From assembly GCF_003351105.1 (NCBI RefSeq), contig NZ_NKRG01000006.1, forward strand, positions 62,001 to 126,000: DNA of 64,000 bases. The letters are read 5' to 3'. The position numbers and the translations under genes are program-made. This document shows, piece after piece, positions 6,164 through 26,131 of the stretch (the stretch's first letter is position 1; each line of letters opens with the position of its first letter). The notes beneath the pieces were generated by a model. The model searched no databases. It saw only the letters and a program-made list of their open reading frames with translations, and was not told the origin of the DNA. This DNA is from Thermosipho africanus Ob7. GTDB lineage: Bacteria > Thermotogota > Thermotogae > Thermotogales > Fervidobacteriaceae.

Positions 6164-6171
6164 TAGATAAT

Positions 6172-8934: not shown

Positions 8935-8972
8935 CCCTACCCCCCTAAAAATAAAGAAATAAATCTAACAAA

Positions 8973-9116: not shown

Positions 9117-9296
9117 ACATTAATACAAAATAATTCATTTTTAACCCCAGCTTTTGAAAAGAGAATACATTTTTCTTTCTCCCTTCCACAATCCACATAG
9201 CTGCTTCTAATCAACAACTTTTTATAATCCTCCATATCAATTTTTTGTCAGTCCAATTGCAATTACCAAAGCAACATTTTCGGTTGTATGCAACAA
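9117..9296 (-). pseudogene. Duplicated remnant of a DUF234-type ATPase tail
   Basis: This stretch closely repeats 11044-11222. On the minus strand both read VAY, (F)G, then MEDYKKLLIRSSYVD, ILFSKAG. This is the last 60 or so residues of the nuclease-like tail of DUF234 ATPases. No N-terminal part is present here. It lies in the 550-base stretch between 8935 and 9551, which otherwise shows only the promoter of each flanking gene. Confidence 0.6.
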
Positions 9297-9451
9297 ATAG
9301 ACAGAAAAATTGATGAGGTACGAAACGGAGGTAGTCGTTAATAGTTTTTGGTATAATGAAATCGGGAAGACTTCCTCCTAAAATTTTGAATTTATTGCCT
9401 TTTATTTTATTATTTTCCTAAATCACTTCATAAAATATCGGGCTATTCATA

Positions 9452-9495
9452 AAGTATATTTCTAAAAATCTCGTACTAAATTAGAAGTATACTTC
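9452..9495. promoter_or_regulatory. Palindromic operator candidate, GAAGTATACTTC
   Basis: A perfect 12-base palindrome GAAGTATACTTC at 9484-9495 and a near copy AAAGTATATTTC at about 9452-9463, about 32 bases upstream. The perfect copy covers the -35 position of the promoter at 9507-9515. Spacing resembles that at the 3837 ATPase locus, but the sequence is unrelated. Confidence 0.5.
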
Positions 9496-9506
9496 CTAAA
9501 TTTTCG

Positions 9507-9515
9507 TGTTATAAT
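9507..9515 (+). promoter_or_regulatory. Extended -10 promoter for the 9552 ATPase
   Basis: TGT-TATAAT with TATAAT at 9510-9515. AGAGGGTG before the ATG at 9552 is the ribosome site. Confidence 0.5.
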
Positions 9516-9551
9516 TTAAATGAATATATTTTCAAAAAAGAGGGTGAAAAT

Positions 9552-10748
9552 ATGAATCTAATAAAAAGAGAGCTTCTTAAAGAGATAAAAGAACATTTAA
9601 ACAAACCTGAAATTACAGTTATTACCGGTCCGCGACAAAGTGGAAAAACTACATTAATGAAAGTTATTGAAAATGAACTTATTTCATCTGGAGAAAAAAC
9701 TTTGTTCTTGAATCTTGATATAGAAGAAGAAATGAAGTATTTTAAATCACAAGCAGATTTATTAAAAAAAATTGAATTAGAAATTGGAGATTCTAAAGGT
9801 TATGTATTTATCGATGAAATACAGAGAAAAGAAAATGCTGGATTATTTTTAAAGGGAATATATGATATGAATTTACCATATAAGTTCATAGTTTCAGGTT
9901 CAGGAAGTATTAATCTTAAAGAAAAAATTCAGGAATCACTTGCTGGAAGAAAAAGAATTTTTGAACTTCCAACTATAACTTTTGAAGAATTTGTAAATTA
10001 CAAGACAGGTTACAAATACGAGAATAAACTAGAAAAATTTTTTAGTTTAGAAGAAACTAAAACTCTATCTTTTTTAGAAGAATACATGAATTTTGGAGGT
10101 TATCCTCGAGTTATACTTGAAACAAGTTTAAAAGAAAAAAATGAGATAATCAAAGAAATTTATCAAAGTTACATAGAAAAAGATATAGTTAGTCTTTTAA
10201 AAGTTGCCAAAATTAGTGAGTTTAATTTATTAGTTAGAATACTATCACATTTAACTGGTAAAACTCTTAATTTTTCGAATCTTTCATCAGAAACAGGAAT
10301 ATCTACAAAAACTTTAAAAGATTATATCTGGTATCTTCAAAAAACTTATGTAATTGATTCGATCCAACCATTTTTCACAAATAAAGCAAAGGAATTAACA
10401 AAATCACCAGTTTGTTATTTTAAAGATTTGGGTTTAAAAAATTATGCATCTGGTGAATTTGGAAATGTAAATGACTTCAGTTTTTTATTTCAGAATTTTG
10501 TTTATATAAATCTGTATTATTTATCAAAAAAATACGATTTTTCTATTCATTATTGGAGGACAAAAGACAAAGCTGAAGTTGATTTTATTTTAAGAAAAGG
10601 TATAGATTATATTCCTATAGAAGTTAAATATACAAATCTAAAAAAATTTAAAATTACAAGAGCTTTAAGAAGTTTCATTAAAAAGTATCAACCAAAAGAA
10701 GCCATAGTTGTAAATTTGCTATCTAAACATGAAAAAAAAATTGGATAA
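9552..10748 (+). CDS. AAA_14/DUF4143 ATPase
   Basis: A 398-residue protein. Walker A is GPRQSGKT at residues 26-33, Walker B is GYVFIDEIQRKENAG, sensor 1 is IVSGSGS, followed by LAGRKRIFELP. The region FEEFVNY to GGYPRV and a winged-helix-like SSETGISTKTLKDYI precede the DUF4143 nuclease-like tail (HYWRTKDKAEVDFIL, IPIEVKYTNLKKF). The frame ends early in a run of nine A (10732-10740). With eight A it would run 27 codons past the poly-A run, to a stop near 10818, and end in a family-like IIPFYEIKKVV. The present end may therefore be a frameshift or a sequencing error. The cellular role is unknown. Confidence 0.82.
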   Translation: MNLIKRELLKEIKEHLNKPEITVITGPRQSGKTTLMKVIENELISSGEKTLFLNLDIEEEMKYFKSQADLLKKIELEIGDSKGYVFIDEIQRKENAGLFLKGIYDMNLPYKFIVSGSGSINLKEKIQESLAGRKRIFELPTITFEEFVNYKTGYKYENKLEKFFSLEETKTLSFLEEYMNFGGYPRVILETSLKEKNEIIKEIYQSYIEKDIVSLLKVAKISEFNLLVRILSHLTGKTLNFSNLSSETGISTKTLKDYIWYLQKTYVIDSIQPFFTNKAKELTKSPVCYFKDLGLKNYASGEFGNVNDFSFLFQNFVYINLYYLSKKYDFSIHYWRTKDKAEVDFILRKGIDYIPIEVKYTNLKKFKITRALRSFIKKYQPKEAIVVNLLSKHEKKIG

Positions 10749-12114: not shown

Positions 12115-12203
12115 ATCCAACATATTACAGACATAATAATTTTAAAGAAGATATAAAATCAAAGAATGCTTGAAATTAATCAATCAAAGTTGATATTAAA
12201 AAA

Positions 12204-12220
12204 TCCCCCTTTCGGGGGAT
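12204..12220 (-). terminator. Terminator of the sulfoquinovose operon
   Basis: On the minus strand TCCCCC-GAAA-GGGGGA followed by TTTTTTAA, right after the last gene's stop at 12227. Confidence 0.85.
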
Positions 12221-12226
12221 AATGTA

Positions 12227-13636
12227 TCAATCAGCTTTATACAAAGATTCATATTTGTAACCAGTTACTTTTTCGATAATTTCCTTTGTATTTTCGTCTA
12301 CTTCTGTTTTGCCGTTTCTAAAGTCGTTTAATTTATTCATTAGCAGTTTGTGAATCTCAGGTGTGATTTTGTATTTCAATGAAACAATAATTCCAAGGAT
12401 AAGTAAAATTACTGGGAATAGGAAAAATGAAAGTCTAAGCCACAAAAGAGTTGTTTCAGATTGTGTTGTGTTTGGAACGTATCCAATGAGATCTAAGAAA
12501 ACCCCCAACAAAAACAAAGTTACAGCTTGCACAATCTTCCTTATTAATGTCATCATTCCAGAGTATAACCCCGCTCGTTTTTTGGTAGTTATAAGTTCAT
12601 CAATATCCACTATTGTAGGTATCATAGCCCATGGGATCATAACTCCAGCAGAAAGCCCCATTCCAACTATTGCACTATTGATTATTAGTACAACATTTGA
12701 GGTGCTTTTTGGTAGCAAAAAGAGCAAAGTCATACCCAATACCCAAATCGATAAACCAATTTGATAAGCCCTTGCCTTTCCAAATTTATTGGAAATTTTT
12801 ACGTAGAGAGGAAGAGATATAATCTGGAAAATTAATATACTTCCCATACAAATTGAAAATAGATTTTCTTTTCCAAGGTAATAAGTAAGATAGTAAATAA
12901 AGAGTGCCATTAAAATATCCATTGCGGTATATGCAAATATATACATTAACATATGAAGTCTAAACATTTTGTTTTTAAATATTGTAAACAAGTTACCTGA
13001 GGATTCTTTTTTAGATGAAACCTTAACTTTTTCGAATGTTCCTAAGAAGACAAAGATCCATGGAATTGCGTATAAAATTCCGAATGTTATACCCATCTTT
13101 AGAAAACCTTCAGATTTTGTCTTTGCACTATCTATTATCAATTTTGGTAAAACACCTGAAATAAGAGCTGAAATCTGTGAAAACATTATACGCGAACCAG
13201 TTAATTTAGTTCTTATTTTAAAATCTTCCGTCATTTCAGCATTTAGAGCTGTATATGGAACCATAACCAGTGTATAAACGGTTGAAAAGAGGATATATGC
13301 AAATGAATAATATAGGAATAAACTTAATTGTGAACTTCCTGAAAATGGATACCAAAGTAAAAAAAAGCTTAAGAAGATGGGGAAGATCCCAACAAGAAAG
13401 TATACTCTTCTTCTTCCAAATTTAGACTTGGTATTATCTGAAATATACCCCATTAATGGATCTGAAATTGCATCCCAAATCTTACCTATAACTAAAACAA
13501 GACCTGCATAAGATGGTTTTAGACCTACAACATCAGTTAAAAATAACAAAAACAGAGTGCCTATTACTATAAAAGATCCTCCACCGAAAATATCTCCCAT
13601 ACCGTATAGAATAATGTTTTTTGTCTTAACTTTCAT
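12227..13636 (-). CDS. GPH-family sugar:cation symporter
   Basis: A 469-residue protein with about 12 membrane helices. It begins with the GPH (MelB/YicJ/YihO) signature: LYGMGDIFGG, then KIWDAISDPLMGYISDNT and GRRRVY. The E. coli sulfoquinovose genes yihO and yihP encode transporters of this family, so it fits uptake of sulfoquinovose or its glycosides, or release of a sulfonate product. It is the last gene of the operon; its ATG overlaps the stop of the glycosidase gene by four bases. The ribosome site is GGGGGGAG. Confidence 0.82.
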   Translation of the reverse strand: MKVKTKNIILYGMGDIFGGGSFIVIGTLFLLFLTDVVGLKPSYAGLVLVIGKIWDAISDPLMGYISDNTKSKFGRRRVYFLVGIFPIFLSFFLLWYPFSGSSQLSLFLYYSFAYILFSTVYTLVMVPYTALNAEMTEDFKIRTKLTGSRIMFSQISALISGVLPKLIIDSAKTKSEGFLKMGITFGILYAIPWIFVFLGTFEKVKVSSKKESSGNLFTIFKNKMFRLHMLMYIFAYTAMDILMALFIYYLTYYLGKENLFSICMGSILIFQIISLPLYVKISNKFGKARAYQIGLSIWVLGMTLLFLLPKSTSNVVLIINSAIVGMGLSAGVMIPWAMIPTIVDIDELITTKKRAGLYSGMMTLIRKIVQAVTLFLLGVFLDLIGYVPNTTQSETTLLWLRLSFFLFPVILLILGIIVSLKYKITPEIHKLLMNKLNDFRNGKTEVDENTKEIIEKVTGYKYESLYKAD

Positions 13637-15582
13637 ATACTCCCCCCTCCGATATTTTCAAAGAGCTTTGAAAATTTAGAACCTTTTCTATAAAACACAG
13701 GAGGATAACCTAATTTAGACTCAATTTCATATTCTCCCCCGCTGTATGTTTTGCCGCTCCAAAGATGGACCCATTCATCTTCGGGAAGTTTTACTTTCCT
13801 AGTTTTTTTGCCTTTTTTCAAAACAGGTGCAACTAGTAGATCTCTTCCAAAAAGGTACTCATCAAACACATAAAAATTTTTGTACTCAAAAAATACGGGA
13901 TAAATTAATGGCGTGCCCGTCATTTGATATTCTTCTAAATAAAACTTGATATAACTTTTGAGCTTGCTGTGAATCTCAACCATTCTTGAAAGGTGCTTCA
14001 ATATTTCATCAGATGAATCAAATTGAATGTTTGAATCAGGTCTGTTTGTTTCGTGGGTTCTCATAACCGGAGAAAATGCTGAAAGTTCAACCCACCTCAT
14101 GAATAACTCAGGGGTTCTTTTTACGTTGAATAATGATGTATAACCTCCTATATCACAGTGTGTTACGCCTACACCGGAAATTGCAGAAGAAAGGAAAGCA
14201 GTTACTACAGAGGGAATTCCATCATCTTTTGACCAGTTTACTAGTTGATCACCCGCCCACATAAGAGGAATATATTTTTGAAAACCAGTAAAGCCAGATC
14301 TAACAAAGAATAATATTTCGCCTATTTTTCCAGATTCTTTTAATGCTTCATAGTTTAATTTGGACCAAAGAACTGGCCAGAAGTTGTGTATTTTTTTGGG
14401 ATCACCCTGGTATAGGACGCTATCATATGGTAAATACTCTCCAAAGTCTGCCATCCAACCATCAAGACCAAATTCAATTAAATTCTTTATAATCACTTGC
14501 TTGTACCATTCATATGCTTGGGGATTTGTAAGATCAACAATTCCACCGTAAAATTCCCCAAAGTCAATTAAATAAGGCTCCCTCTTCGAGTTTTTTACTA
14601 AGAAGTTGTTTGTTAATGCTTCTTTGTAAAGAGTTCCTTCACTTACCAAATAAGGATTGATGTATCCCAAAAATCTTATTCCATTTTCTTTTAAATATTT
14701 TATCTTTTCATCAAGGTTTGGATACATTTCTTTATTCCATTTCCAGTCCCAAAATAATCTTTTTCCAAAGGATGTTACTTTCTTTCCAACCCAATCTTGA
14801 CACCATACACCACTGACCTTAATACCGTATTTTTTTGCAATTTCTAACTTCTTAAATAAAGTATCAGTTCCACCTTGAATTCCAAGTATTATACCGTCTA
14901 ATGCCCAATCAGGTAAAATTGGCTGTCTACCAACATAACTTGTAAATTTTTCAGTGATATCTTTATAACTTTCTCCATAGAAAAACTTAATCTTTGGAAA
15001 ATCCCAAAATTCAATTTCGATATAATCATTATTAGTAAAATCAAAGTTCATATACGAACTGCCTTCAACAAGAAGGGAATAACCTTTGCTGCTTAGATAA
15101 TAAGGTTGTGGAAAGTTTGTTGTATAGTAATTTCCTCCTGCTTTTCCTGAGATATCAGCAAGCCATGTTACATAGTATTTTTTATTTCTTCCAACACCCG
15201 GTTCTGAGACCCAGATAGGGAATTTTTTCCCTTTTAGATTAACATAAGAAAATTGCTCGCCAAGTCCAAATATCTTTTCATCTTTCGTTGAATTTATCTT
15301 TATCCACAACCTGTTTAAATCTTTCTTTAGAGGTATAAACTCTAGAGTATCAAAATTTTTTACAACCTTTAATAGATCTTCAGAATCATTTCCAAATACG
15401 TACTCATTATTTTGTATTTTTAATTTATTTAAAGGGATTTTTTTTACTTTCTTTTCTTTAATTGAAAAATTACCACGGTACATATTTACATATTCATTTG
15501 CTCTTCCAACGAAAAAGCAAGGATTATTTATAGAATGCTCTATTAATTTTAGATTTTCTATGCTAAATTCAAAATTAGGCAT
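13633..15582 (-). CDS. yihQ: GH31 sulfoquinovosidase (YihQ-type)
   Basis: A cytoplasmic enzyme of 649 residues that would release sulfoquinovose from its alpha-glycosides such as sulfoquinovosyl glycerol. The sequence matches remembered E. coli YihQ well: ILGIQGGTDT, GVWCQDWVGK, TSFGKRLFWDWKWN, GEFYGGIVDLTNP, GWMADFGEYLP and WAGDQ. The nucleophile would be Asp of ADFGEY (about 379) and the acid Asp of GDQ (about 445). The Gln, Arg and Trp that YihQ uses to bind the sulfonate (Q288, R301, W304) occur here at about 262, 275 and 278 with identical spacing. The N-terminal beta-sandwich is present and there is no signal peptide. I chose the ATG at 15582 over GTG 15591 because AGGGGTG is then correctly spaced. 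Ordinary alpha-xylosidases lack this set of residues. Confidence 0.88.
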   Translation of the reverse strand: MPNFEFSIENLKLIEHSINNPCFFVGRANEYVNMYRGNFSIKEKKVKKIPLNKLKIQNNEYVFGNDSEDLLKVVKNFDTLEFIPLKKDLNRLWIKINSTKDEKIFGLGEQFSYVNLKGKKFPIWVSEPGVGRNKKYYVTWLADISGKAGGNYYTTNFPQPYYLSSKGYSLLVEGSSYMNFDFTNNDYIEIEFWDFPKIKFFYGESYKDITEKFTSYVGRQPILPDWALDGIILGIQGGTDTLFKKLEIAKKYGIKVSGVWCQDWVGKKVTSFGKRLFWDWKWNKEMYPNLDEKIKYLKENGIRFLGYINPYLVSEGTLYKEALTNNFLVKNSKREPYLIDFGEFYGGIVDLTNPQAYEWYKQVIIKNLIEFGLDGWMADFGEYLPYDSVLYQGDPKKIHNFWPVLWSKLNYEALKESGKIGEILFFVRSGFTGFQKYIPLMWAGDQLVNWSKDDGIPSVVTAFLSSAISGVGVTHCDIGGYTSLFNVKRTPELFMRWVELSAFSPVMRTHETNRPDSNIQFDSSDEILKHLSRMVEIHSKLKSYIKFYLEEYQMTGTPLIYPVFFEYKNFYVFDEYLFGRDLLVAPVLKKGKKTRKVKLPEDEWVHLWSGKTYSGGEYEIESKLGYPPVFYRKGSKFSKLFENIGGGSI

Positions 15583-15597
15583 TTTGGTCACCCCTAT

Positions 15598-16899
15598 TTA
15601 TCCAAGAAACTGCCAGTTCATTATCTTTGCAAATATTTTATATGTTCTATAATAATCACCGTAAACCATTGCAACATGGTGTGCAATGCCATTTGTAATT
15701 AATCTATCTAATACATCTTTAACAGGCTTTTCAAACTTTACTTTTGCATATGTTCCCTTTAAGAGTTTTTCCATCTCAAAGGCCTTTCCTTTTTCGGCAA
15801 ACACTCTTGTTTTTCCGCGGGCAGAATCTATCCTGAGAATAGTAATTTCACCTTCTTTTAAAACAAAGTCCGCTGTAACACCTTTTCCGCCTGCAAAGTA
15901 AGTGTCTAAACTTCTATTTGATTTCCCATCCCAGAGGTTTGCAGGGGCAACTCCACAATGCCATAACAGGGTTTCATCTTTTTCTAGATCGACCTGCGAA
16001 AGATCTGCAAGAAATGGAGTTTTATTAGATGCAGCTTTTGCTGCAATCATAGAAAGTGTTCCTTCTAAATCACCTTCGCAGCCTGTTATATATCCCTTTG
16101 CTTGTAAATATGACATGGCTGCACAAGGTGATATTCCATAGTCCCCTGCAAATTCTGGCCAGCATCTAATAGCGACACCTGCTAATTTTTTTTCATCCAA
16201 GAATTTTTTTAGGGCATAAGTTAATTTTGATACTTTTTTTAGCTGTTCTTTTGAAATGCTTGAAACTTCGTATACCTTAGAAATTTCTTCTTCATATACT
16301 TTTTCATCTGCATTTTTTGCCAAATCGTATAATTCATTTAACTGATAGTAGTCTACAATGGTACCAGAATTCCCAAAAAGATTTAATTCATCAACACTTA
16401 AATTGAAAAATCCATGTGCCCTATTGCCAAGGATTCCAATTTTTGAATCCGATATAGCCTTTTTCATATTAATCGCTTTTAGCCAATCTTCATCTACTCT
16501 TTCACCTATTACATAGTGAAAGTTGTCTACACCAGATTTATATAGGTTAGAAGCATTTAGGTTCAAACCGCATACCGAATTTAATCTGATTTTGCCTCCA
16601 TCATATGGAAGCTCATTAAATGCCCATAGAAGAATTGGAACCTTGTATTTCTTTTGCAAGGATATTGCAAGATGACCTAGATGAAATGTACCACTAATTA
16701 TTATCAACCCATCAATTTCTTTTATGTTTTCATATACCCTTTCAAGATCTTCTACATCTATTACAAGTTCATCGTATATTTTAAAATCTACATAATCTAT
16801 CTTTTTTAATTCTTCTACCTTTGATTTGAAAATTTCTTCTGCTGCTTTAAAATCGAAAGTTTTACGTGCAAGGCAAACTACGCCAATTTTAGATTTCAT
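15598..16899 (-). CDS. Fucose/arabinose-isomerase-like sugar isomerase, candidate sulfoquinovose isomerase
   Basis: A 433-residue protein of the L-fucose/L-arabinose isomerase fold. It shows GLIIISGTFHLGH, LLWAFNELPYDGG, IRCWPEFAGDYGISPCAAMSY, ITGCEGDLEGTLSM and IAHHVAMVYGDYY. The Glu/Asp in CEGDLEG and the His in AHHVAM fit the metal and substrate site. In known sulfo-TAL and sulfo-TK pathways an enzyme of this family converts sulfoquinovose to sulfofructose, which is the role I infer. It lies directly before the sulfoquinovosidase gene. The substrate cannot be read from sequence alone. Confidence 0.75.
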   Translation of the reverse strand: MKSKIGVVCLARKTFDFKAAEEIFKSKVEELKKIDYVDFKIYDELVIDVEDLERVYENIKEIDGLIIISGTFHLGHLAISLQKKYKVPILLWAFNELPYDGGKIRLNSVCGLNLNASNLYKSGVDNFHYVIGERVDEDWLKAINMKKAISDSKIGILGNRAHGFFNLSVDELNLFGNSGTIVDYYQLNELYDLAKNADEKVYEEEISKVYEVSSISKEQLKKVSKLTYALKKFLDEKKLAGVAIRCWPEFAGDYGISPCAAMSYLQAKGYITGCEGDLEGTLSMIAAKAASNKTPFLADLSQVDLEKDETLLWHCGVAPANLWDGKSNRSLDTYFAGGKGVTADFVLKEGEITILRIDSARGKTRVFAEKGKAFEMEKLLKGTYAKVKFEKPVKDVLDRLITNGIAHHVAMVYGDYYRTYKIFAKIMNWQFLG

Positions 16900-16911
16900 T
16901 TTTTCACTCCC

Positions 16912-17898
16912 TTATGTTGTTTTTCTTTTAACTAACTCCACGTCAAATACATATTCTTTCTTTTTGTGCCTTTTCTTGTTTATCCTCTGATGCAAAATTT
17001 CAAAAGCCTTTTCACCAATTGCAAATTTGTCAACTTTTACTGTTGAAAGACCTACGATGCTTGAAAATACTATATCGTCATATCCAATGACTGCTACATC
17101 TTGCGGAACTTTTATGCCTTCCTCATTAAAGAATTTCAATACCGCAAGTGCAAATATGTCGTTGTAGCAAAAAATACCATCTATTTTTACATTTTTTCTT
17201 TTCCAAAATTGTTTAAATGTTGAAAACGCTTCTTCAAACCCTTCTTTAGAGAATAATGTATTTTCATTTAAGCCATGCTCTAGTATTGCCTTTTTATACC
17301 CCTCACATCTTTTTCTTGTTGCATATTTAAAGCTTGAGCCTGCAAAAAAGAGAATATTTTTCTTTCCACTTTCTATTAAGTGTTTTGTTGCAAGATAGCC
17401 ACCCTTTAAGTCATCTATATATACCTCATCTATATTTAAATCTTCGTTGTGATATTCGACCAATACCGTTGGAAAATTTATCTCTTGAAGAAATTTCAAA
17501 TCTTCGATTTTTGTTTGCATAGCAGTTATTATTAACCCATCTACCCTTCTTTCAAGGAAGGTGCGAATAGCCTTTTCCTCGATTTCGTATTTTCTATCGG
17601 TATTCATAAAAAGGATTTGGTAATCCTTTTTTCTAGCAGCGTATTCAACACCCTTGAGAATGTCTGAATAAAATGGGTTTTGAGTGTCTACTATAACTAC
17701 GCCTATTGTTTTTGTTTTGTTGTATTTTAAAGATGTTGCAGTAATGTTTTTTACATAGTTGAGTTTTTTTGCAACCTGAAGGATTTTTTCTTTTGCTTCT
17801 TTGCTTACATATCCTTTGTTGTTTAACGCTCTTGAGACGGTTATGACAGAATATCCAGATTCTCTTGCAATATCCTTTAAGGTTACAAATCTTTTCAT
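16912..17898 (-). CDS. LacI-family repressor of the operon
   Basis: A 328-residue regulator. The HTH is at the start (TLKDIARESGYSVITVSRAL), followed by the hinge NYVKNITATSLKYNKT and a periplasmic-binding-like ligand domain (TIGVVIVDTQNPFYSDIL, VAVIGYDDIVFS, STVKVDKFAIGEKA). It is inside the operon, between the RpiB-like and isomerase genes. The tandem GATAACGTTATC palindromes before the first gene are typical LacI-family operators and are its likely target, so induction by sulfoquinovose or an intermediate is inferred. The ribosome site is GGAGGG. Confidence 0.85.
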   Translation of the reverse strand: MKRFVTLKDIARESGYSVITVSRALNNKGYVSKEAKEKILQVAKKLNYVKNITATSLKYNKTKTIGVVIVDTQNPFYSDILKGVEYAARKKDYQILFMNTDRKYEIEEKAIRTFLERRVDGLIITAMQTKIEDLKFLQEINFPTVLVEYHNEDLNIDEVYIDDLKGGYLATKHLIESGKKNILFFAGSSFKYATRKRCEGYKKAILEHGLNENTLFSKEGFEEAFSTFKQFWKRKNVKIDGIFCYNDIFALAVLKFFNEEGIKVPQDVAVIGYDDIVFSSIVGLSTVKVDKFAIGEKAFEILHQRINKKRHKKKEYVFDVELVKRKTT

Positions 17899-17907
17899 AT
17901 TTCCCTC

Positions 17908-18390
17908 CTATTTGAAGTTTTTATCTTCTATTTTTCTAATTTCATTTAGTGCATTTTCTAAAAATTGCTTTCTGTTTTCATCAATGAAGTCAAGGCCCTC
18001 TGCAAACTTTGCGTTTAACCAGTTGTCAATTATTTCCTTTGCCTCAAAAGGAGTAATTAGCCATCCTCCCATAGTTAAAACATTAGAATTGTTTATTATT
18101 TTAGACAATTTTGCGGTAAATGGTCCTTCTACAACAGAAGCATACACTCCTTTGAATTTATTTGCAACTATTGCCATTCCCATTCCCGTGCCACAACACA
18201 AAATGCCTCTTTCATATTCCCCTTTAGAGACTTTTTCCGCAACCATAGCTGCAGATACATAATAAGGTCTTACTTCTTCATTTTCGTACATACCAACATC
18301 TTCAACTTCGATACCTTTTTCTAGAAGATATTTTTTTATTTCTTGTTTTAGTGAAAATCCAGATTTATCAGAGCCGATTACAATTTTCAT
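17908..18390 (-). CDS. RpiB/LacA-family isomerase, candidate sulfoerythrose isomerase (SqwI-like)
   Basis: A 160-residue RpiB-fold protein with GSDKSGFSLK at the start and the active Cys in CCGTGMGM (Cys66). Compared with E. coli RpiB, the substrate/phosphate residue His9 is Lys9, the ring-opening His99 is Ile99, and the phosphate-binding Arg near 133 and 137 (GGRHQQR) are replaced by GLDFIDEN. This fits a substrate that carries a sulfonate instead of a phosphate and that needs no ring opening. In the sulfo-TK pathway an RpiB-family enzyme (SqwI, as I recall) converts 4-deoxy-4-sulfoerythrose to the ketose. Neighbouring transketolase genes support this. The gene overlaps the next by four bases. 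Confidence 0.75.
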   Translation of the reverse strand: MKIVIGSDKSGFSLKQEIKKYLLEKGIEVEDVGMYENEEVRPYYVSAAMVAEKVSKGEYERGILCCGTGMGMAIVANKFKGVYASVVEGPFTAKLSKIINNSNVLTMGGWLITPFEAKEIIDNWLNAKFAEGLDFIDENRKQFLENALNEIRKIEDKNFK

Positions 18391-19313
18391 GCCAATCCCT
18401 CCTTGATGCTTTCATATATTGATTGTGAATCAATTTTGAACTTTTTCATTAAATAATCCGCCTTTCCAACAAAACCATAATGATCCCTAATTCCTATTCT
18501 TTTTACAAAAACTGGATAATGTTCTGAAACAACTTCTGCAACAGCACTACCCCAACCGTTTATAATACTGTGATTTTCTACGACAAATATTTTTCCTGTT
18601 TCTTTTGCAGCCTTTACGATGCTTTCCTCGTCAACAGGTTTTAATGTATGCATATTAAGTACTCTAATGCTGTATCCTTCACTTTCAAGCATATCAACAA
18701 CTTTTTTTACTTCGTATAGCATTATTCCAGAAGTAATAATTGTAAAATCTTTTCCGTCTTTTACTTCAAATATTTTTCCAATTTCAAAGTTGTCGTTTTC
18801 ACTGAAAAATACTCTTTTTTCTTTTCTATTTAATCTTAAATATGAAGGACCTTGATATTCGATTATTTGCGGCAGTAATTTTTTTAGTTGTATAAAATCA
18901 ACTGGTTCGATAACAATAAATCTTGGGAGATTCCTCATGATTCCAGCATCTTCAAAGCTCATATGAGTCTGACCGTTTAATTCTGCCATAACGCCAGGAT
19001 CAGATCCAACGACTTTTACAGGAAGATTTGCAAGTCCAACTGAAATTGCAAGTTGATCGTAAGTTCTTCTTGTGGCAAAGGGTGTAAATGAATGCACAAA
19101 TGGAATTTTTCCCATATTAGAAAGTCCTGCGGCAATGCCAACCATATTTGCTTCTGCAACACCTACGTCAATGTACCTATCTGGAAATTTTTCTTTGAAG
19201 ATATCTGTTCTATGTGCTTTCATAAGGTCGGCATCTAGCACCATTATCCTTGGATCTTTTTCCGCTAATTTTACTAATTCTTTGTTGTATAGAATTCTTA
19301 ATTCTTCATTCAT
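18387..19313 (-). CDS. Transketolase, C-terminal subunit (SqwH/SqwG-like)
   Basis: A 308-residue protein covering the pyrimidine-binding and C-terminal domains of transketolase. The catalytic Glu lies in DVGVAEANMVGIAAGL, and FVHSFTPFATRRTYDQ, YLRLNRKEK and VLNMHTLKPVDEESI follow. It pairs with the N-terminal half encoded just upstream, overlapping by eight bases; such split enzymes are common. In this operon it would transfer the top two carbons of sulfofructose, and then of sulfoerythrulose, to glyceraldehyde 3-phosphate, making xylulose 5-phosphate and finally sulfoacetaldehyde. An ordinary transketolase role cannot be excluded from sequence alone. Confidence 0.82.
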   Translation of the reverse strand: MNEELRILYNKELVKLAEKDPRIMVLDADLMKAHRTDIFKEKFPDRYIDVGVAEANMVGIAAGLSNMGKIPFVHSFTPFATRRTYDQLAISVGLANLPVKVVGSDPGVMAELNGQTHMSFEDAGIMRNLPRFIVIEPVDFIQLKKLLPQIIEYQGPSYLRLNRKEKRVFFSENDNFEIGKIFEVKDGKDFTIITSGIMLYEVKKVVDMLESEGYSIRVLNMHTLKPVDEESIVKAAKETGKIFVVENHSIINGWGSAVAEVVSEHYPVFVKRIGIRDHYGFVGKADYLMKKFKIDSQSIYESIKEGLA

Positions 19314-20145
19314 ATTTTTTCACCTCTTCTTCAAGCAATTGATGCGCCTTTTGCCATTCTTCTTTGCTAACCTTCATGTTGTGGCAAGAAAGTTTACCTT
19401 CTGCAAAATAAGCTCCTTTTCCTTTTATTGTGTTGAGTATAATTACAGATGATTGTTCTTTATTTTCCTTTGCCCTTTTTATAGCCTCATAAATTTGATT
19501 TATATCATGACCATCTATCGATTGTGTGTGCCACTTGAATGCCTTAAGTTTCTCTTCAAGGGGTTCTAAATCGTTAAGTTCTTTAATAGGAGCATCTATC
19601 TGCATTTTATTGTAGTCTATAAAGACTATTAAATTGTCCAGTCTTTTGTTTCCACCAAAGAGCAGAGCCTCCCATACCTGGCCTTCTTGTAGTTCTCCAT
19701 CACCCAAAATACAATATACGTTGATATCTTTTTTGTCTAACTTTGCCGCTATGGCCATACCTATTGCTGCGGAAAGTCCTTGACCTAATGATCCGCTTGT
19801 CATATCAACACCAGGAGTTACGAGTCTATCACAATGACTTGGAAGTTTTGTTTCAGGCTGATTTAGTGTATCAAGGTATTCTTCAGGAATGTATCCTATA
19901 TCTGCAAATATTGCATATAGTGCAGGCCCTGCGTGCCCCTTGGATAAAACAAGTCTGTCTCTATCCTCCCAATTTGGGTTTTTTGGGTCTATTTTCATAA
20001 CCTTGTAATAAAGTACTACCAGTGCCTCAACAATTGACATACTACCACCAATGTGTCCAACACCTAAAGTTCCTATTTCCCTTAGTATGTTTTGCCTAAC
20101 TCTTACCGCTTTTTTCTTTAGATAGATTTCTGTAGCTTTGTCCAT
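19306..20145 (-). CDS. Transketolase, N-terminal (thiamine diphosphate) subunit (SqwG/SqwH-like)
   Basis: A 279-residue protein with the thiamine diphosphate fold: GTLGVGHIGGSMS, DRLVLSKGHAGPALYA, MTSGSLGQGLSAAIGMA, and the TPP motif beginning GDGELQEGQVWEA and ending at the Asn of FIDYNKMQ about 28 residues later. The final TIKGKGAYFAEG is also typical. It forms the transketolase with the next gene. Its place between a Fe-type dehydrogenase and an RpiB-like isomerase, in an operon with a YihQ enzyme, is what points to sulfosugar cleavage. Confidence 0.82.
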   Translation of the reverse strand: MDKATEIYLKKKAVRVRQNILREIGTLGVGHIGGSMSIVEALVVLYYKVMKIDPKNPNWEDRDRLVLSKGHAGPALYAIFADIGYIPEEYLDTLNQPETKLPSHCDRLVTPGVDMTSGSLGQGLSAAIGMAIAAKLDKKDINVYCILGDGELQEGQVWEALLFGGNKRLDNLIVFIDYNKMQIDAPIKELNDLEPLEEKLKAFKWHTQSIDGHDINQIYEAIKRAKENKEQSSVIILNTIKGKGAYFAEGKLSCHNMKVSKEEWQKAHQLLEEEVKKYE

Positions 20146-20159
20146 ACAAAGTCCTCCCT

Positions 20160-21203
20160 CTAAAAAATTTTCTTTAGAATTTGCATTAAATTGTCTTCTG
20201 TGAAATTTGCGGGTGTTAATTTTATAATATTGGCCTTAAATGAATCTTCAACAATTTTAGGTAATTCAGTTTCTTTAACACCATAATCTCTAAGTTTTAA
20301 ACTAAATCCACCTTCTGTTATTGCATTATCTATCCATTCTTTTAAATCTTTAACATCAGTTTTTAGAAAATCTAAAAACTCTTCCAGTATAGATTTATTA
20401 TTTTCGTATACAAATTCTATTAAGTGGCTTAAAGTTAATGCACAAGCAATCCCATGCGGGATTCCATACCTATTTGTTAGTGGAAAACTAATTGCGTGTG
20501 CGGCAGTTGTTCGTGTTTGTGAAAATGCAATTCCTGCAATAAGACTTGCTTTTGACATTTCATCTCTTGCTGAGTAGTCGAAGTTGGCTGATTTTAAAAG
20601 ATTTTCTTTTATTATTTTTGCAGCTTTTAAGGAGAGTGCCTGACTGATATCTTGTGTTGATGTTGCCCAATATGATTCTATGGCGTGGGTAAACGCATCA
20701 AGGCCAGTTGAAATAGTAACGTTTTTGGGCATTGAATAAGTAAGTTCAGGATCAACTATGGAAAGGTCAGGCCAAAAGGCATCTGTTACAACAGGCATTT
20801 TTAATCCACTTGAAAAGGTATAAACTCCAACATTTGTAACTTCGCTTCCAGTACCAGATGTTGTAGGGCAAACAATTAATTTTGTTTTCTTTTCTTTAGG
20901 AACCTCATTTTCAATATTTTCAGCAAAGCAACTTACCGCTTTTGCGGTATCGATTGTACTTCCACCGCCTATTGCAACAATAGTTGTTATGTTTTCTTTT
21001 TTAGCAATTGATACCGCTTTTTTAACCTGCTGCGTTGGCGGGTTAGGAATAATTTCGCTAAAGACAACCTTTCCAAAATCGATTTTATCTTTAAGGAAAG
21101 GATCACAGATTACCATGGTGTTTTCATCGATATACTCCTTTAATTTTTTGAACTCTCCTTTTCCATATATTATTTTTACAGGCATAAAGTAACTAAAATT
21201 CAT
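20160..21203 (-). CDS. Iron-type alcohol dehydrogenase, candidate sulfoacetaldehyde reductase (SqwF-like)
   Basis: A 347-residue Fe-ADH family enzyme. The NAD-binding motif GGGSTIDTAKAV, GTGSEVTNVGV, and the metal ligands Asp and His in GLDAFTHAIESYW, His in AAHAISFPL and His in GIPHGIACAL are all present. Fe-ADH enzymes are known to reduce sulfoacetaldehyde to isethionate (for example SarD of Bilophila). In this pathway the same step would regenerate NAD during fermentation. The product, isethionate, would then be exported. Alternative substrates such as sulfolactaldehyde or simple aldehydes remain possible. Confidence 0.72.
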   Translation of the reverse strand: MNFSYFMPVKIIYGKGEFKKLKEYIDENTMVICDPFLKDKIDFGKVVFSEIIPNPPTQQVKKAVSIAKKENITTIVAIGGGSTIDTAKAVSCFAENIENEVPKEKKTKLIVCPTTSGTGSEVTNVGVYTFSSGLKMPVVTDAFWPDLSIVDPELTYSMPKNVTISTGLDAFTHAIESYWATSTQDISQALSLKAAKIIKENLLKSANFDYSARDEMSKASLIAGIAFSQTRTTAAHAISFPLTNRYGIPHGIACALTLSHLIEFVYENNKSILEEFLDFLKTDVKDLKEWIDNAITEGGFSLKLRDYGVKETELPKIVEDSFKANIIKLTPANFTEDNLMQILKKIF

Positions 21204-22057
21204 AAATTTGCCTCCTTTCTTTTTTGTGAAAATATGATAAAGAATACACCAATTAAGATAGCAGCAACACCAAAGACTTGATTGATATTGAGTTTTTCTT
21301 GAAACAAAAACATACTAACTATAATTACGTATATGGGCATAGATAGCAAAAAAGTCCTTATGATCCATATTTGGAATAACTCCATAGCTTTGTAGTAAAC
21401 AATGTAAATAAGAACTTGAAATACACCAGCTATGAATAGTGATAAAAATGATTCGATGTTTACTATCTTTAAAGAAGAACCACTAAATATTGTTAGAGCT
21501 GAAAAAGATACCAAAGCAAACAAATTGTTGTAAAAACCTATAGATAAATTACTTAAATTGTATTTTTCCTTTACATTTTTAATTAAAAACGCATTTAGTG
21601 ATACAAAAAATGCGCTCAAAATGAAGAATAAATCGCCGACATTTACGCTAAAGCTTTTAATATTAAACACAAATGCTATACCGATAAACATCATTAAAGT
21701 TCCAAGCCAATCAAAGATCAAAAATTTGATACCAAGAAATATAGAAATTAGGTTTGTAAAAAAGACATCAGTTCTCAGCAGCAGTACTCCATTTGAGGCA
21801 GTAGAGTATTTTAGACCCAAAAAAGCAAAAAAATCCAATAAAAAGCCTACAATACCAATTAAAATCAGACTAAAGGGAGCATTTTTTATAGAAGATAATT
21901 CTTTTTTTCTTGTAAAAATTAACATAACTGCTAATGCAAATAATCTTACATAAAAGCCTACGACCAATACATCTTGATACGAAGTTGCTATTTTATTTGC
22001 TATGTAATAACTTCCCCAGATGATAGAAAGTAATACTAGAAATAAGTAGTTTTTCAT
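21200..22057 (-). CDS. EamA/DMT-family permease, candidate sulfonate exporter
   Basis: A 285-residue protein with ten predicted membrane helices in two EamA repeats. The first repeat starts LLSIIWGSYYIANKIA; the second ends with FLFQEKLNINQVFGVAAILIG, the usual EamA signature. EamA proteins mostly export metabolites. In the operon it sits right after the ABC permeases and before the reductase, so release of isethionate is the inferred job. Both ends overlap neighbouring genes by four bases. Confidence 0.72.
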   Translation of the reverse strand: MKNYLFLVLLSIIWGSYYIANKIATSYQDVLVVGFYVRLFALAVMLIFTRKKELSSIKNAPFSLILIGIVGFLLDFFAFLGLKYSTASNGVLLLRTDVFFTNLISIFLGIKFLIFDWLGTLMMFIGIAFVFNIKSFSVNVGDLFFILSAFFVSLNAFLIKNVKEKYNLSNLSIGFYNNLFALVSFSALTIFSGSSLKIVNIESFLSLFIAGVFQVLIYIVYYKAMELFQIWIIRTFLLSMPIYVIIVSMFLFQEKLNINQVFGVAAILIGVFFIIFSQKRKEANL

Positions 22058-22872
22058 CCTTTAACTCCACCAGCCATTAAACCTTTTATAATGTATTTTT
22101 GAAGTGTTAAAGTAATGACGAACGCGGGTATTAACATCAAAGTACCTGCTGCAGATAGCTTACCCCACATTGGTGCGTATTGACCAAGATAGGCGTTAAC
22201 TACTAAAGGAGCAGTTTTTGCTCTTATGTTTGTTAATATAAGTGCGTATAAAAATTCATTCCAAGACATTATGAAAGAAAAAACAAATGATACAACAAGT
22301 CCGGGGGATACTAATGGAATGAAGATAACCCAAAAGATTTTCTTTTCACCGCATCCATCAACCTTTGCTGCTTCTTCAAATTCTTTTGGAATAGCTGCAA
22401 AAAATGGAAGAAGGAGCCAGATAACATAAGGAATATTAAAACTTATATGTGCAAGTGTTAAACTAAAAACATTGTCTAGTAAGTTTAAACTTCTAAACAG
22501 CATGTACATAGGAACGGCAAGAGAAATTTGAGGAATCATTCTTGATGTTAAAAATGAGTAAGCGACAAATTTTTTTCCTTTAAATTTGTACCTGGTTATT
22601 CCATATGAAGCCATTGCACCTACTATAACTGAAAATGCAGAGGATATTAAAGCAACAATAAGACTATTTTTAATACCTCTTAAAAAAGTTCTATCTTTTA
22701 AAACGGAAATATAGCTTTTTAAAGTAAAATTTGTGGAAAAAGGAGTAGAAGAAAAAATATCGATATCTCTTTTAAAACTATTTGAGATAACTACCAATAT
22801 TGGAATCATCTCTATTATTACTATCAAGAAAGCTAAAATTATTAATATTACATTTTTTGCTTTTTTATTCAT
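22054..22872 (-). CDS. ABC sugar importer permease, MalG type
   Basis: A 272-residue inner membrane permease with six helices and the EAA loop EEAAKVDGCGEKKIFWVIFIPL. It ends with TLMLIPAFVITL and the typical KYIIKGLMAGGVKG. I chose the ATG at 22872, which overlaps the end of the previous permease gene and follows GGTGAGAG, rather than the TTG at 22890. Its partners are the MalF-type permease and the binding protein. No ATPase gene lies in the operon, so a shared MsmK/UgpC-type ATPase encoded elsewhere must energise it. Confidence 0.85.
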   Translation of the reverse strand: MNKKAKNVILIILAFLIVIIEMIPILVVISNSFKRDIDIFSSTPFSTNFTLKSYISVLKDRTFLRGIKNSLIVALISSAFSVIVGAMASYGITRYKFKGKKFVAYSFLTSRMIPQISLAVPMYMLFRSLNLLDNVFSLTLAHISFNIPYVIWLLLPFFAAIPKEFEEAAKVDGCGEKKIFWVIFIPLVSPGLVVSFVFSFIMSWNEFLYALILTNIRAKTAPLVVNAYLGQYAPMWGKLSAAGTLMLIPAFVITLTLQKYIIKGLMAGGVKG

Positions 22873-23755
22873 AACTCTCACCCAAGTCAAAACTGTTTTT
22901 TATGAGGAATCTTGTAAGTATTAAGGAAGATATAATAAGTATTATTGCCATAGCAGATGCGTATCCAATGTTGAAATATTCAAATGCTTGCTTGTTTATG
23001 TACAAAGAAAGAAGTAATGTTCCATTACCGGGGCCGCCACCTGTCATTACATATACTTCTGAAAAAATTCTTAAAGCATCTATTGTTCTAAGCAATATAG
23101 CCATAACTATAGTTGGTTTAAGATACGGCACTATAACATAATATAGTTTTTCAAAAAAATTTGCGCCGTCTATTATCGCAGCTTCTTCCAGCTCTTTTGG
23201 CATTGTAGAAAGACCTGCATAAAGCAGAATAAACATAAATGGCCACATTCTCCATATATCTTGAATAACAACAGCTGCATAGGCTGAGCCTGGGTATGCT
23301 AGAAATGCCTTTTGCTTTAAACCAATCAAAGAAAGAAAGTAGTTGATAGTTCCATACTCTGGTTGAAGCATAAAACTCCAAGTTAAACCAGATAATATTG
23401 GAAGGATGAACACTGGTAAAAGTAATAGAGACCTTAATATGTTAACACCCTTAAATTGTCTATTCATTAATATTGCAACGAAAAAGCCTATAACAAGTTC
23501 TATAGGAATAGCTATAAATATAAAACCAAACTGTTTTAGTAGAGCGCTCCAAAATATTTTATCTTTGAATAAATTAATGTAGTTTTTCAAAAAGACAAAA
23601 GCTCTATTTTGAGTGCTAACTAGATTCCACTCAAAAAAAGAAAGGCCTGTGGCATAGACAATTGGAAAAATAAGAACAACAAAAGCTGATAAGATGGCTG
23701 GCATTAGGAAAAAGAGGGGAAAGTTACCCCTCTTTTTTTTATTTTTCAACGACAT
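22865..23755 (-). CDS. ABC sugar importer permease, MalF type
   Basis: A 296-residue inner membrane permease with six helices. It has LRSLLLLPVFILPILSGL and the EAA loop EEAAIIDGANFFEKLYYVIVPYL, then VMTGGGPGNGTLLLS as in MalF/UgpA proteins. The start overlaps the end of the binding-protein gene by 17 bases. Codons 6 to 15 also form a strong terminator-like hairpin (23709-23741), which probably lowers permease expression relative to the binding protein. Confidence 0.85.
   Translation of the reverse strand: MSLKNKKKRGNFPLFFLMPAILSAFVVLIFPIVYATGLSFFEWNLVSTQNRAFVFLKNYINLFKDKIFWSALLKQFGFIFIAIPIELVIGFFVAILMNRQFKGVNILRSLLLLPVFILPILSGLTWSFMLQPEYGTINYFLSLIGLKQKAFLAYPGSAYAAVVIQDIWRMWPFMFILLYAGLSTMPKELEEAAIIDGANFFEKLYYVIVPYLKPTIVMAILLRTIDALRIFSEVYVMTGGGPGNGTLLLSLYINKQAFEYFNIGYASAMAIILIISSLILTRFLIKNSFDLGESYE
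23709..23741 (-). terminator. Attenuator-like hairpin inside the permease gene
   Basis: On the minus strand an A run, then AAGAGGGG, loop TAACTTT, CCCCTCTT and three more T. The hairpin begins right after the binding-protein stop at 23739 and lies inside the permease coding frame. It fits a partial terminator or an RNA-stabilising 3' end for the binding-protein message. Confidence 0.65.
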
Positions 23756-24998
23756 TTTTTAATTCCTCCACCATTTTATCTAAGGCTTCATCGATTGACA
23801 TTTGTCCTGTTACACCAGCAAGCCAGTAAGTTCTAATCACATTTGAAACTTCTGGATAATTTTCGATTCTAGGTCTGCTTATAGCATATTTCATAGATTC
23901 GAATATTCCTTCAAACCATGGTCTATCTTTTGCAAGTTCAGGATCTTTTAGTAAATCTACTCTTGCTGGAGTCATTCCTACTTTAACTAATTCTTTTCCA
24001 GCCTTATACGATGACCACCAGTATGCAAATTCTGCAGCTGCTTCTTTGTTTTTAGAAGCTTTTGGAATTCCAAGAACCCAGGCGCCTCTAACTGCTGCTC
24101 TTCTAATATCACCAGATGGTGGAGCTGAATAAATGATATTACCAACAACCATAGACTTATCAGGATTTTCATGATCAGGAATTATTGCTGGCCATTGGAA
24201 CATTGAAAAGACTTTACCTTGGTTAAATGCGGCAATTCTTTCTGAGTGACCATAGTTATTTGCGCCTTCAGGAGCGTACTTTAATAATTCTTTATACATT
24301 TCCATTGCCTTTTTTGCTCTTTCTTTGTTTAGAACAACACGATATTTTCCGGTTTCCTTGTCAAACATAATAGGTGTGGTACCATATGCTTCAAACATCA
24401 TCATAGCTTCACAAGTAGAACCTTCTGTTGATTTTGTAAATGGAGCAAATCCATATATCCCTTTTTTCTTTAAAAATTTTGCCATATCAAGCAGTGCTTC
24501 AAATGTCTGTGGAACCATCATTTCGTATCCATATTCTTTCATAAATTCATCTTTGTACTTTTCTATTATGTCTTTTCTTGTCATCCATACATAGACGTTA
24601 CCATTAATTGGAAGCCCAACAATTACATCTCTTAATACAGCTGCTTTAAACGTTTCTTCCAGAATAACGTTTAAATCTGGTTTTTCATAATACTTTCCTT
24701 TTGGCCATTTGTCATATGGTTCAAGTAATTTACCAATTTGTGGAACGTAAGGTTCATCAACGGCAACTATATCATACTGTGTAGAATTGCTAGATACACC
24801 AACTGCAATTTTTTGAAGGACATTTCCGGAAGGTACTAATTCCATTTCCACTCTAATTCCAGTTGCTTTTTCAAATTCTGGAAGTTTTTCAAGAACGGCT
24901 CTGGTCAATGCATCATCCCAAACTAAAACCCTTATTGTAGGCCCTGCAAAAAGACTTACGACTAATACGAGCAGCGTTAAAAACAACACCTTTTTCAC
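23739..24998 (-). CDS. ABC importer solute-binding protein (family 1), candidate sulfoquinovose binder
   Basis: A 419-residue secreted protein. The signal peptide is MKKVLFLTLLVLVVSLFAGP. The mature part starts TIRVLVWDDALTRAVLEKL and has the family 1 pattern with YDIVAVDEPYVPQIG and ADEVGKEL-like C-terminal helices (GMTPARVDLLKDPELAKDRP). It would capture the sugar outside the cytoplasmic membrane and pass it to the two permeases. First gene of the operon, GTG start with AAGGGGGG ribosome site, behind tandem LacI-type operators. The ligand is inferred only from the operon content. Confidence 0.8.
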   Translation of the reverse strand: MKKVLFLTLLVLVVSLFAGPTIRVLVWDDALTRAVLEKLPEFEKATGIRVEMELVPSGNVLQKIAVGVSSNSTQYDIVAVDEPYVPQIGKLLEPYDKWPKGKYYEKPDLNVILEETFKAAVLRDVIVGLPINGNVYVWMTRKDIIEKYKDEFMKEYGYEMMVPQTFEALLDMAKFLKKKGIYGFAPFTKSTEGSTCEAMMMFEAYGTTPIMFDKETGKYRVVLNKERAKKAMEMYKELLKYAPEGANNYGHSERIAAFNQGKVFSMFQWPAIIPDHENPDKSMVVGNIIYSAPPSGDIRRAAVRGAWVLGIPKASKNKEAAAEFAYWWSSYKAGKELVKVGMTPARVDLLKDPELAKDRPWFEGIFESMKYAISRPRIENYPEVSNVIRTYWLAGVTGQMSIDEALDKMVEELKNVVEK

Positions 24999-25021
24999 AA
25001 CAATCCCCCCTTAAAATGGTA

Positions 25022-25048
25022 TGATAACGTTATCTGATAACGTTATCA
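25022..25048. promoter_or_regulatory. Tandem LacI-type operators, GATAACGTTATC
   Basis: Two perfect 12-base palindromes GATAACGTTATC at 25023-25034 and 25036-25047, with 13 bases between centres, lie 24 bases before the start of the first operon gene. The central CG and overall form match LacI/GalR-family sites. I did not see further copies in the window. Confidence 0.8.
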
Positions 25049-25162: not shown

Positions 25163-25193
25163 AAAAAAGAAAGCTCCGGATTGCGGGGCTTTT
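25163..25193 (-). terminator. Terminator of the aldo/keto reductase gene
   Basis: On the minus strand AAAGCCCCG, loop, CGGAGCTTT and then CTTTTTTAT. It begins at the stop codon of the upstream gene and separates it from the sulfoquinovose operon. Confidence 0.75.
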
Positions 25194-26131
25194 CACCAAG
25201 GAAGTGGATTAGGGGCTATTTCATTGTCATATAATTCTTCATACTTTTTCACTTTCTCTATATCCATTTTAATATCGCTTGCTTTTAGATTTTCTTTTAA
25301 TTGTTCAATATTTTTACTGCCAACAGCTATAGTTGAAATTGCATCGTAAGATAGAATAAAACTTAAAGCCTCATGGACCATTGAAACATTTTCACCTTTT
25401 ATTTTTCTTACTTTTTCAACTAACATTGCACGCCTTTCTATATCATTTACACTCCATCTACTTCTTATGCCTGTAAAACGACTGTTTTTGTTGTGCTTTC
25501 CAGTTAACCACCCTGAATCAAGGGGAACTTTTACAATTACTGCATACTCTTTTTCCTTCAACTTATTAAATGATTTTCTTACATCTTGAAAGAAAATATT
25601 AAAAAGAATTTCTACAACTTCGCTATAGGTTCTTTCTATTAACCTATCAACTTCTTTTGAAAAATCGAGAGATGCACCATATGCTTTAATTAGACCTTCG
25701 GATTTCATCTTTTCTAACACTTTAAATTGCTCGCTTTTTTGATCAAGTAATTCTAATGGCGGATTGTGCAATATAACAGAATCAAGATAATCTGTTTTTA
25801 GTTTTTTTAAACTATTTTCTATTGTTTTTTGAATTACATAAGGGTCGAAGCCATTTTCTAACCCTGGTACATGTCCAACTTTTGTGTTAATCACTATTTT
25901 TTCTCTGTTAAAATCTTTTAAGGCTTCGCCTAAAATCATTTCACTTTTTCCTTCTGCATAATTTGGAGCAGTATCAAAAAAATTACAACCTAGTTCAACT
26001 GCGGTATGAACTAAATTTATAGCCTCTTCATATTTTGGGCCATCCCAGTCTTTTTCATTACCAAGTTGCCATGCTCCAAATCCAATTTCAGATACTAATT
26101 TTTCACTTTTTCCATATTTTCTATAATTCAT
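25193..26131 (-). CDS. Aldo/keto reductase
   Basis: A 312-residue NADPH-dependent reductase of the AKR fold. The catalytic set is visible: Asp and Tyr in FFDTAPNYAEG, Lys in VINTKVGH, His in SVILHNPP. The cofactor end is ISTIAVGSKNIEQL. The start at 26131 is chosen for its GGAGATGAT. The gene has its own terminator and a gap before the sulfoquinovose operon, so a role there is possible but not shown. The substrate is unknown; sugar or keto-acid reduction is common in the family. Confidence 0.82.
   Translation of the reverse strand: MNYRKYGKSEKLVSEIGFGAWQLGNEKDWDGPKYEEAINLVHTAVELGCNFFDTAPNYAEGKSEMILGEALKDFNREKIVINTKVGHVPGLENGFDPYVIQKTIENSLKKLKTDYLDSVILHNPPLELLDQKSEQFKVLEKMKSEGLIKAYGASLDFSKEVDRLIERTYSEVVEILFNIFFQDVRKSFNKLKEKEYAVIVKVPLDSGWLTGKHNKNSRFTGIRSRWSVNDIERRAMLVEKVRKIKGENVSMVHEALSFILSYDAISTIAVGSKNIEQLKENLKASDIKMDIEKVKKYEELYDNEIAPNPLPW

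Follow-up and report, generated by a model that had tools for sequence, protein, structure and literature searches.

A predicted LacI-controlled operon for sulfoquinovose use by the transketolase route in Thermosipho africanus Ob7

Introduction

The transketolase (TK) route of sulfoquinovose (SQ) degradation, known as sulfo-TK and set out in two reviews (PMC12890257, PMC9594981), was defined in Clostridium sp. MSTE9, and a 2026 review lists it for Clostridia, Spirochaetes and Thermotogae (PMC12890257, citing Liu et al. 2021). Here we analyse a stretch of 64,000 nucleotides (nt) from contig NZ_NKRG01000006.1 of Thermosipho africanus Ob7, hereafter the window, which carries a twelve-gene operon. 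This operon very probably serves the anaerobic use of SQ glycosides by the reductive variant of sulfo-TK, under LacI control. The initial annotation of this DNA had left it in doubt whether the pathway was described for Thermotogota, although genome mining had previously placed it in Thermotogae (PMC12890257). Because the route was defined in MSTE9 and has been credited to Thermotogae, the window operon is a well-supported further instance of an established type of pathway. Our literature search found no paper that names Petrotoga or Thermosipho together with SQ, and no experimental demonstration of sulfo-TK in a thermophile. New here are the conservation of the operator, a candidate exporter of the EamA family, the occurrence of two dissimilar types of isomerase and the phylum-wide absence of DUF4867. 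The operon is a clear predicted example of a thermophilic lineage fermenting SQ, the sulfonated sugar found in the membrane lipids of plants and algae, and its distribution in Thermotogota is patchy and apparently transferred.

Compared with the MSTE9 system (Liu et al. 2021; reviews PMC9594981 and PMC12890257), the window has in common a putative FucI-like SQ isomerase, a split TK (SqwGH), SqwI, an Fe-type alcohol dehydrogenase (Fe-ADH) that is a candidate SqwF, and YihQ, and isethionate is the predicted end product in both. The window operon differs in lacking DUF4867 (SqvB), in having ATP-binding cassette (ABC) and GPH importers and a LacI protein with a defined double operator, and in carrying an EamA protein as a candidate in the place of the exporter SqwE. 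Its isomerase is probably of another subfamily, being 24% identical to that of locus L108.

The SQ clusters of Faecalicatena are induced by SQ, with isethionate as a product, and include a drug/metabolite permease (PMC11659671). That of Faecalicatena sp. DSM 22707 (PMC11659671) shares with the window an isomerase, the TK halves, SqwI, a sulfoacetaldehyde reductase (a candidate one in the window), a DMT permease and an ABC importer, and the window TK halves are 52-59% and its SqwI 49% identical to those of F. contorta (L114). Of the two, Faecalicatena alone has a transaldolase branch and a DUF4867-type protein, and it uses an NAD-dependent sulfoquinovosidase instead of YihQ. Thermotogota and Chloroflexi also have transaldolase (sulfo-TAL) clusters (PMC9594981, PMC12890257), which have a transaldolase instead of TK and SqwI and yield a C3 sulfonate. 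A YihQ-type GH31, an ABC importer and an isomerase are features that the window has in common with other SQ-type loci of Thermotogota. None of the twelve operon genes encodes a sulfofructose transaldolase, the mark of sulfo-TAL.

The operon and its predicted pathway

All coordinates are window positions, and the twelve proteins were assigned to families using Pfam and NCBIfam profiles. The features of the operon, all on the minus strand, are as follows.

12203..12220, minus: intrinsic terminator, about 7 nt past the last gene's stop; 7-pair stem with 5 G-C pairs, and a T run
12227..13636, minus: GPH-family sugar symporter (MFS_2), candidate importer of SQ or an SQ glycoside
13633..15591, minus: YihQ-type GH31 sulfoquinovosidase (NF007746 profile, tree, key residues)
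15598..16899, minus: putative SQ isomerase of the SqvD/SftI type with an arabinose/fucose isomerase fold, predicted to convert SQ to sulfofructose (NF048012 below cut-off; AlphaFold/Foldseek)
16912..17898, minus: LacI-family protein, predicted repressor of the operon (family profile, conserved operator)
17908..18390, minus: SqwI-type isomerase of the RpiB family, predicted to convert 4-deoxy-4-sulfoerythrose to 4-deoxy-4-sulfoerythrulose (profile, tree, residues)
18387..19313, minus: TK C-terminal half, one SqwGH subunit (family, tree)
19306..20145, minus: TK N-terminal half, the other SqwGH subunit, thiamine diphosphate-binding (family, tree)
20160..21203, minus: Fe-ADH, candidate SqwF, predicted to reduce sulfoacetaldehyde to isethionate (family, metal ligands)
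21200..22057, minus: EamA/DMT transporter, candidate isethionate exporter (family; association with Fe-ADH in SqwI loci)
22054..22890, minus: ABC sugar permease 2 (family profile)
22865..23755, minus: ABC sugar permease 1 (family profile)
23739..24998, minus: ABC solute-binding protein, the operon's first gene (family; same type beside other Thermotogota YihQ genes)
25022..25048, minus: double LacI-type operator TGATAACGTTATCAGATAACGTTATCA, 23 nt upstream of the first gene

All twelve open reading frames are open, on the minus strand, between 12227 and 24998; neighbouring genes overlap at seven of the eleven junctions and are separated by gaps of 6-14 nt at the other four. The gene number, strand, overlaps and families given in the initial annotation are thus borne out, and its limits of 12204-25048 agree with the terminator and the operator. 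Because these two elements bound the genes, the stretch reads as a single predicted transcription unit under LacI control, running from double operator to terminator. The exact 14-bp operator palindrome occurs once in the 1.93 Mb genome. The double operator also precedes the matching operon of genome G039 (L217), and single TGATAACGTTACCA/ATCA sites lie upstream of the binding-protein gene in G068, G071, G072 and G075, so that the operator is conserved in five Thermotogota genomes besides that of the window. A SqwI-type protein was found in 13 of the 103 Thermotogota genomes, in a patchy pattern, and an above-cut-off YihQ is present in 13/13 of these against 15/90 of the others (Fisher p = 3.5e-9, an optimistic value, as related genomes were counted separately). 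With an operator unique in its genome and SqwI always accompanied by YihQ in 13 genomes, the operon is more than a chance assembly.

Genes, family placement, key residues, operator and terminator are read from the sequence, and from these we infer all substrates, fluxes and transport directions. SQ or SQ-glycerol would be imported by the ABC transporter, the GPH transporter or both, after which the YihQ-type GH31 would release SQ and the isomerase would convert it to sulfofructose. The split TK would then transfer C1-C2 of sulfofructose onto glyceraldehyde 3-phosphate, and the products would be xylulose 5-phosphate and 4-deoxy-4-sulfoerythrose. The SqwI-type isomerase would turn the latter into its ketose, 4-deoxy-4-sulfoerythrulose. 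The same TK would take a second C2 unit from this ketose, leaving sulfoacetaldehyde for reduction to isethionate by the Fe-ADH with regeneration of NAD+, and isethionate would leave the cell, probably via the EamA protein. The claim that every step is present holds for this core carbon pathway and no further, as an ABC ATPase, a DUF4867 or YihR-type mutarotase and a sulfolipase are absent from the operon.

Predicted sulfoquinovosidase

The GH31 protein scores 890 bits on the YihQ model NF007746 (cut-off 553), and 207 bits on the alpha-xylosidase model, for which the cut-off is 606. The six PDB entries that it matches best are all YihQ/sulfoquinovosidase-type enzymes or variants of them. In the tree it clusters with E. 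coli YihQ, apart from the alpha-xylosidase YicI and from the genome's second GH31 (100% support). E. coli YihQ (5AED; 721 bits) and E. rectale SftG (770 bits), which we take to be PDB entry 8R56, both match over the whole length, and the identity to E. coli YihQ is about 47%; catalytic and sulfonate-binding residues are shared with both, and the window enzyme differs from them in being hosted in a transketolase operon. Residues Q265, R278, W281, D382, D448 and Y484 correspond to E. coli YihQ Q288, R301, W304, D405, D472 and Y508, which presumably act in catalysis and sulfonate binding. The catalytic Asp pair and the sulfonate-binding Arg, Trp and Tyr are all kept. Judged by profile, tree and residues together, this protein is assigned as a YihQ sulfoquinovosidase.

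We also see that the sulfonate-binding Arg301 (E. coli numbering), kept in the window and G039 enzymes, is Gln in the other Thermotogota YihQ types compared (L039, L042, L050, L054).

SqwI-type isomerase

The SqwI profile gives 283-314 bits in the 13 Thermotogota genomes, and no other RpiB-family protein scores above 132 bits. In the tree the window protein groups with the sulfo-TK SqwI of other phyla, and the split from ordinary RpiB is supported at 100/100. SqwI shares its fold with ribose 5-phosphate isomerase B and LacAB, and in the alignment all SqwI proteins keep the RpiB catalytic Asp, Cys66 and Asn100. In E. coli RpiB, His99 serves furanose ring opening and a set of Arg and His residues binds phosphate (PMC3755991). 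SqwI proteins have Ile or Val for His99, mostly Lys for His10, and Leu, Phe or Met for Arg133, while His134 is lost; Trp replaces the Arg that follows the conserved GS/GG pair, and the C-terminus is longer. The ring-opening His and phosphate-binding Arg/His were looked for in the window protein; the former and most of the latter are absent. Having no C4 hydroxyl, 4-deoxy-4-sulfoerythrose cannot form a furanose ring. With no furanose to open, and the ring-opening His and most phosphate ligands gone, these losses fit an acyclic sulfonated C4 sugar as the likely substrate, and not ribose 5-phosphate. The genome carries separate housekeeping RpiB and TK genes.

SqwI-like genes with no recognisable TK nearby were seen at L087, L096, L109 and L141, in metagenome-assembled genomes (MAGs) of Hydrogenedentes and Armatimonadetes.

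Split transketolase

In the TK tree the window halves fall in a clade of TK halves that adjoin SqwI in Clostridia and Spirochaetes, and the genome's own fused TK lies outside this split sulfo-TK clade. The same module adjoins SqwI genes in those two groups, Faecalicatena included, and outside Thermotogota the TK N-terminal half lies within 4 kb in 63/79 SqwI loci. Substrate-site residues were considered as a sulfo-TK signature and rejected: the change of Ser385 to Ala, though frequent, is not found in all sulfo-TK enzymes, and TKs of inositol clusters also carry Asp in place of His461.

The split TKs of G040 and G022 (L221 2940-12837; L223 452-10458) sit in inositol-catabolism-like clusters, in which IolB-, IolD-, IolE- and IolG-like proteins were recognised by eye, alongside others that resemble GAPDH and PGK. 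This suggests a transketolase-linked inositol route. Three other Thermotogota split TKs (L184, L187 and L188, from G055, G007 and G006) lie near the sulfo-TK clade, in genomes without SqwI.

Putative sulfoquinovose isomerase

The isomerase matches the NCBI SQ isomerase model NF048012 with 232 bits (7.8e-69; curated cut-off 700), and a PDB sequence search gave no relative. Its AlphaFold model (predicted local distance difference test score, pLDDT, 92.6) matched L-arabinose and L-fucose isomerases in Foldseek, as expected of the SqvD type, which is described as a FucI homologue (PMC9594981). The protein is thus a putative divergent member of the SQ isomerase family, predicted to convert SQ to sulfofructose. 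Two unlike isomerases, 25-27% identical, accompany the same core in Thermotogota. The window shares its type with G039/G042, G029 and G005, and the second type occurs in the g2 genomes, which belong to the window's family.

Structural work would gain from heat-stable forms of every core enzyme, as this isomerase has no PDB sequence relative and direct measurement of SqwI was hampered by a substrate that isomerises by itself (PMC9594981).

Predicted reduction to isethionate and transport

The Fe-ADH metal ligands D169, H173, H236 and H250 are invariant among the Thermotogota copies, and the protein is 38-42% identical to Fe-ADHs beside SqwI in several Clostridia. Neither SqwD nor SqwKL, of the oxidative branch to sulfoacetate, is encoded among the twelve genes, and no PFL-like glycyl radical enzyme was found in the genome, so IseG-type cleavage of isethionate is not expected. 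With neither an oxidative branch nor a glycyl radical enzyme found, isethionate should be the exported product. If released in hot sediments or oil reservoirs, it would feed sulfite-reducing partners.

The EamA protein is probably the isethionate exporter, a candidacy that draws on the distribution of its gene. In SqwI+TK loci outside Thermotogota, EamA goes with Fe-ADH (39/52 against 1/12, p = 3e-5, which is optimistic as related and truncated loci were counted separately). Among the importers, the GPH symporter is closest to YihO of the three E. coli GPH relatives compared (28%). The solute-binding protein is of a type found beside Thermotogota YihQ genes wherever the flank was read long enough (52-62% identical; 75% in G039). 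We rejected it as a SmoF homologue, since SmoF (7nbz) was a weak match ranked behind maltose-binding proteins. Outside the operon, the genome encodes several ABC ATPases of MalK length.

Alternative readings

Several observations weigh against the sulfo-TK interpretation. The wider split-TK clade includes the inositol-cluster TKs of G022 and G040 and three from SqwI-free genomes, so the TK placement is supportive and not decisive. As SqwI-like genes occur without a nearby TK in some Hydrogenedentes and Armatimonadetes MAGs, SqwI is not perfectly diagnostic, and its family may have uses beyond sulfo-TK. The isomerase lies far under the curated SQ isomerase cut-off and is about 24-27% identical to the likely isomerases in L108 and L114. 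The Fe-ADH falls under every curated cut-off, with no curated model confirming it as a sulfoacetaldehyde reductase, and the operon has no ABC ATPase and neither DUF4867 nor a YihR mutarotase. On the other side stand the placements of GH31, SqwI and TK in their trees and the separate housekeeping TK and RpiB genes, which support the interpretation first given in the initial annotation. The result that the annotation had named as refuting it, a GH31 among alpha-xylosidases with TK and RpiB genes among ordinary pentose phosphate enzymes, did not appear in these trees. The same placements and genes also tell against an ordinary sugar operon, in which an alpha-xylosidase or alpha-glucosidase would work with pentose phosphate enzymes on non-sulfonated sugars. 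GH31, TK, RpiB, Fe-ADH and ABC families do all occur in ordinary sugar metabolism, but here the GH31 exceeds the YihQ cut-off, lies in the YihQ clade and keeps its sulfonate-binding residues, the RpiB phosphate ligands and ring-opening His are lost, and other genes supply TK and RpiB. On trees and key residues we reject an alpha-xylosidase/pentose operon, and we find an ordinary sugar operon scarcely credible.

The divergence of the isomerase within its family, and the pairing of two unlike isomerases with the same core in Thermotogota, would suit a different sulfonated sugar handled by the same chemistry, for instance sulfofucose or another 6-sulfo-hexose glycoside. The six key residues of YihQ are nevertheless all kept, and the literature search turned up no further substrate published for such a set of genes, making another sugar very unlikely. 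The end product allows somewhat more doubt: sulfoacetaldehyde could be oxidised to sulfoacetate, or the Fe-ADH or a neighbouring aldo/keto reductase could make another product. An oxidative sulfo-TK variant is known, and the Acholeplasma pathway, which had been cited as leading to isethionate, in fact ends in sulfoacetate; the low profile scores of the Fe-ADH point the same way. Yet no CoA-acylating aldehyde dehydrogenase or CoA ligase is found among the twelve genes, the Fe-ADH is kept in the cluster wherever the TK N-terminal half adjoins YihQ in Thermotogota, and EamA is associated with Fe-ADH. An end product other than isethionate is therefore improbable, and we retain the reductive sulfo-TK route.

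Absence of DUF4867

DUF4867 (SqvB/SftX), whose function is unsettled (PMC11968277), was found in none of the 103 Thermotogota genomes. As a control, 17/20 sulfo-TK genomes of other phyla match and 16/20 exceed the cut-off, against 0/13 sulfo-TK Thermotogota (16/20 vs 0/13, p = 5e-6). Heat could replace a mutarotase, because in phosphate buffer at 26 °C SQ already mutarotates uncatalysed with a 50 min half-life (PMC5902678). Away from the operon, the genome encodes one generic aldose epimerase (G000:C1:323635-324585). G026 and G029, which resemble Mesotoga in size and GC (46-47%) and are probably mesophilic, likewise lack DUF4867; this weakens heat as a complete explanation, and lineage may also account for the absence. 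We offer only tentatively, and with some doubt, the idea that the DUF4867 step (ring opening or mutarotation, with SQ or sulfofructose as the substrate) would be spontaneous in hot cells or done by another protein, and that SqwI would now act as an isomerase of the acyclic sulfonated C4 sugar. If this is true, the Thermotogota operons are a natural test of DUF4867 function, and its absence makes the role of that protein directly testable.

Distribution and neighbouring regions

Of four genomes that belong to the window's genus, a single one has the operon. In all three trees (SqwI, TK and GH31) the window copy groups with that of G039, a member of another family, and apart from those of the g2 genomes, which are of the window's family; transfer of the operon between families would be the simplest reading. 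The region shared with G039 may be larger than the operon, as window positions 36031-39053 match DNA directly upstream of the G039 operon (L217 1-3011; 73.5% nt identity). This segment carries a LytS/LytR-type regulator pair adjoining a CstA-like transporter.

One gene adjoins the operon, apparently outside its transcription unit.

25193..26131, minus: aldo/keto reductase

It was considered as a thirteenth pathway gene and rejected, since a terminator-like stem and the operator lie between, and homologues occur without SqwI. No operator was found in its promoter region. The protein shares 80% identity with a reductase encoded within the G039 cluster, and G045 and G084, both without SqwI, have close homologues (76-82%). 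Across families, the reductases compared (window 25193-26131; L038 11053-11985; L252 7475-8497; L253 6980-7918) are 76-82% identical, lying within or beside the operon in two lineages and operon-free in two further genomes.

On the left flank, positions 948-10748 have low GC (27%) and, by eye, an IS3-like transposase pair at 5864-6993 and AAA/DUF4143-like ATPases. This is possibly a mobile region adjoining the operon.

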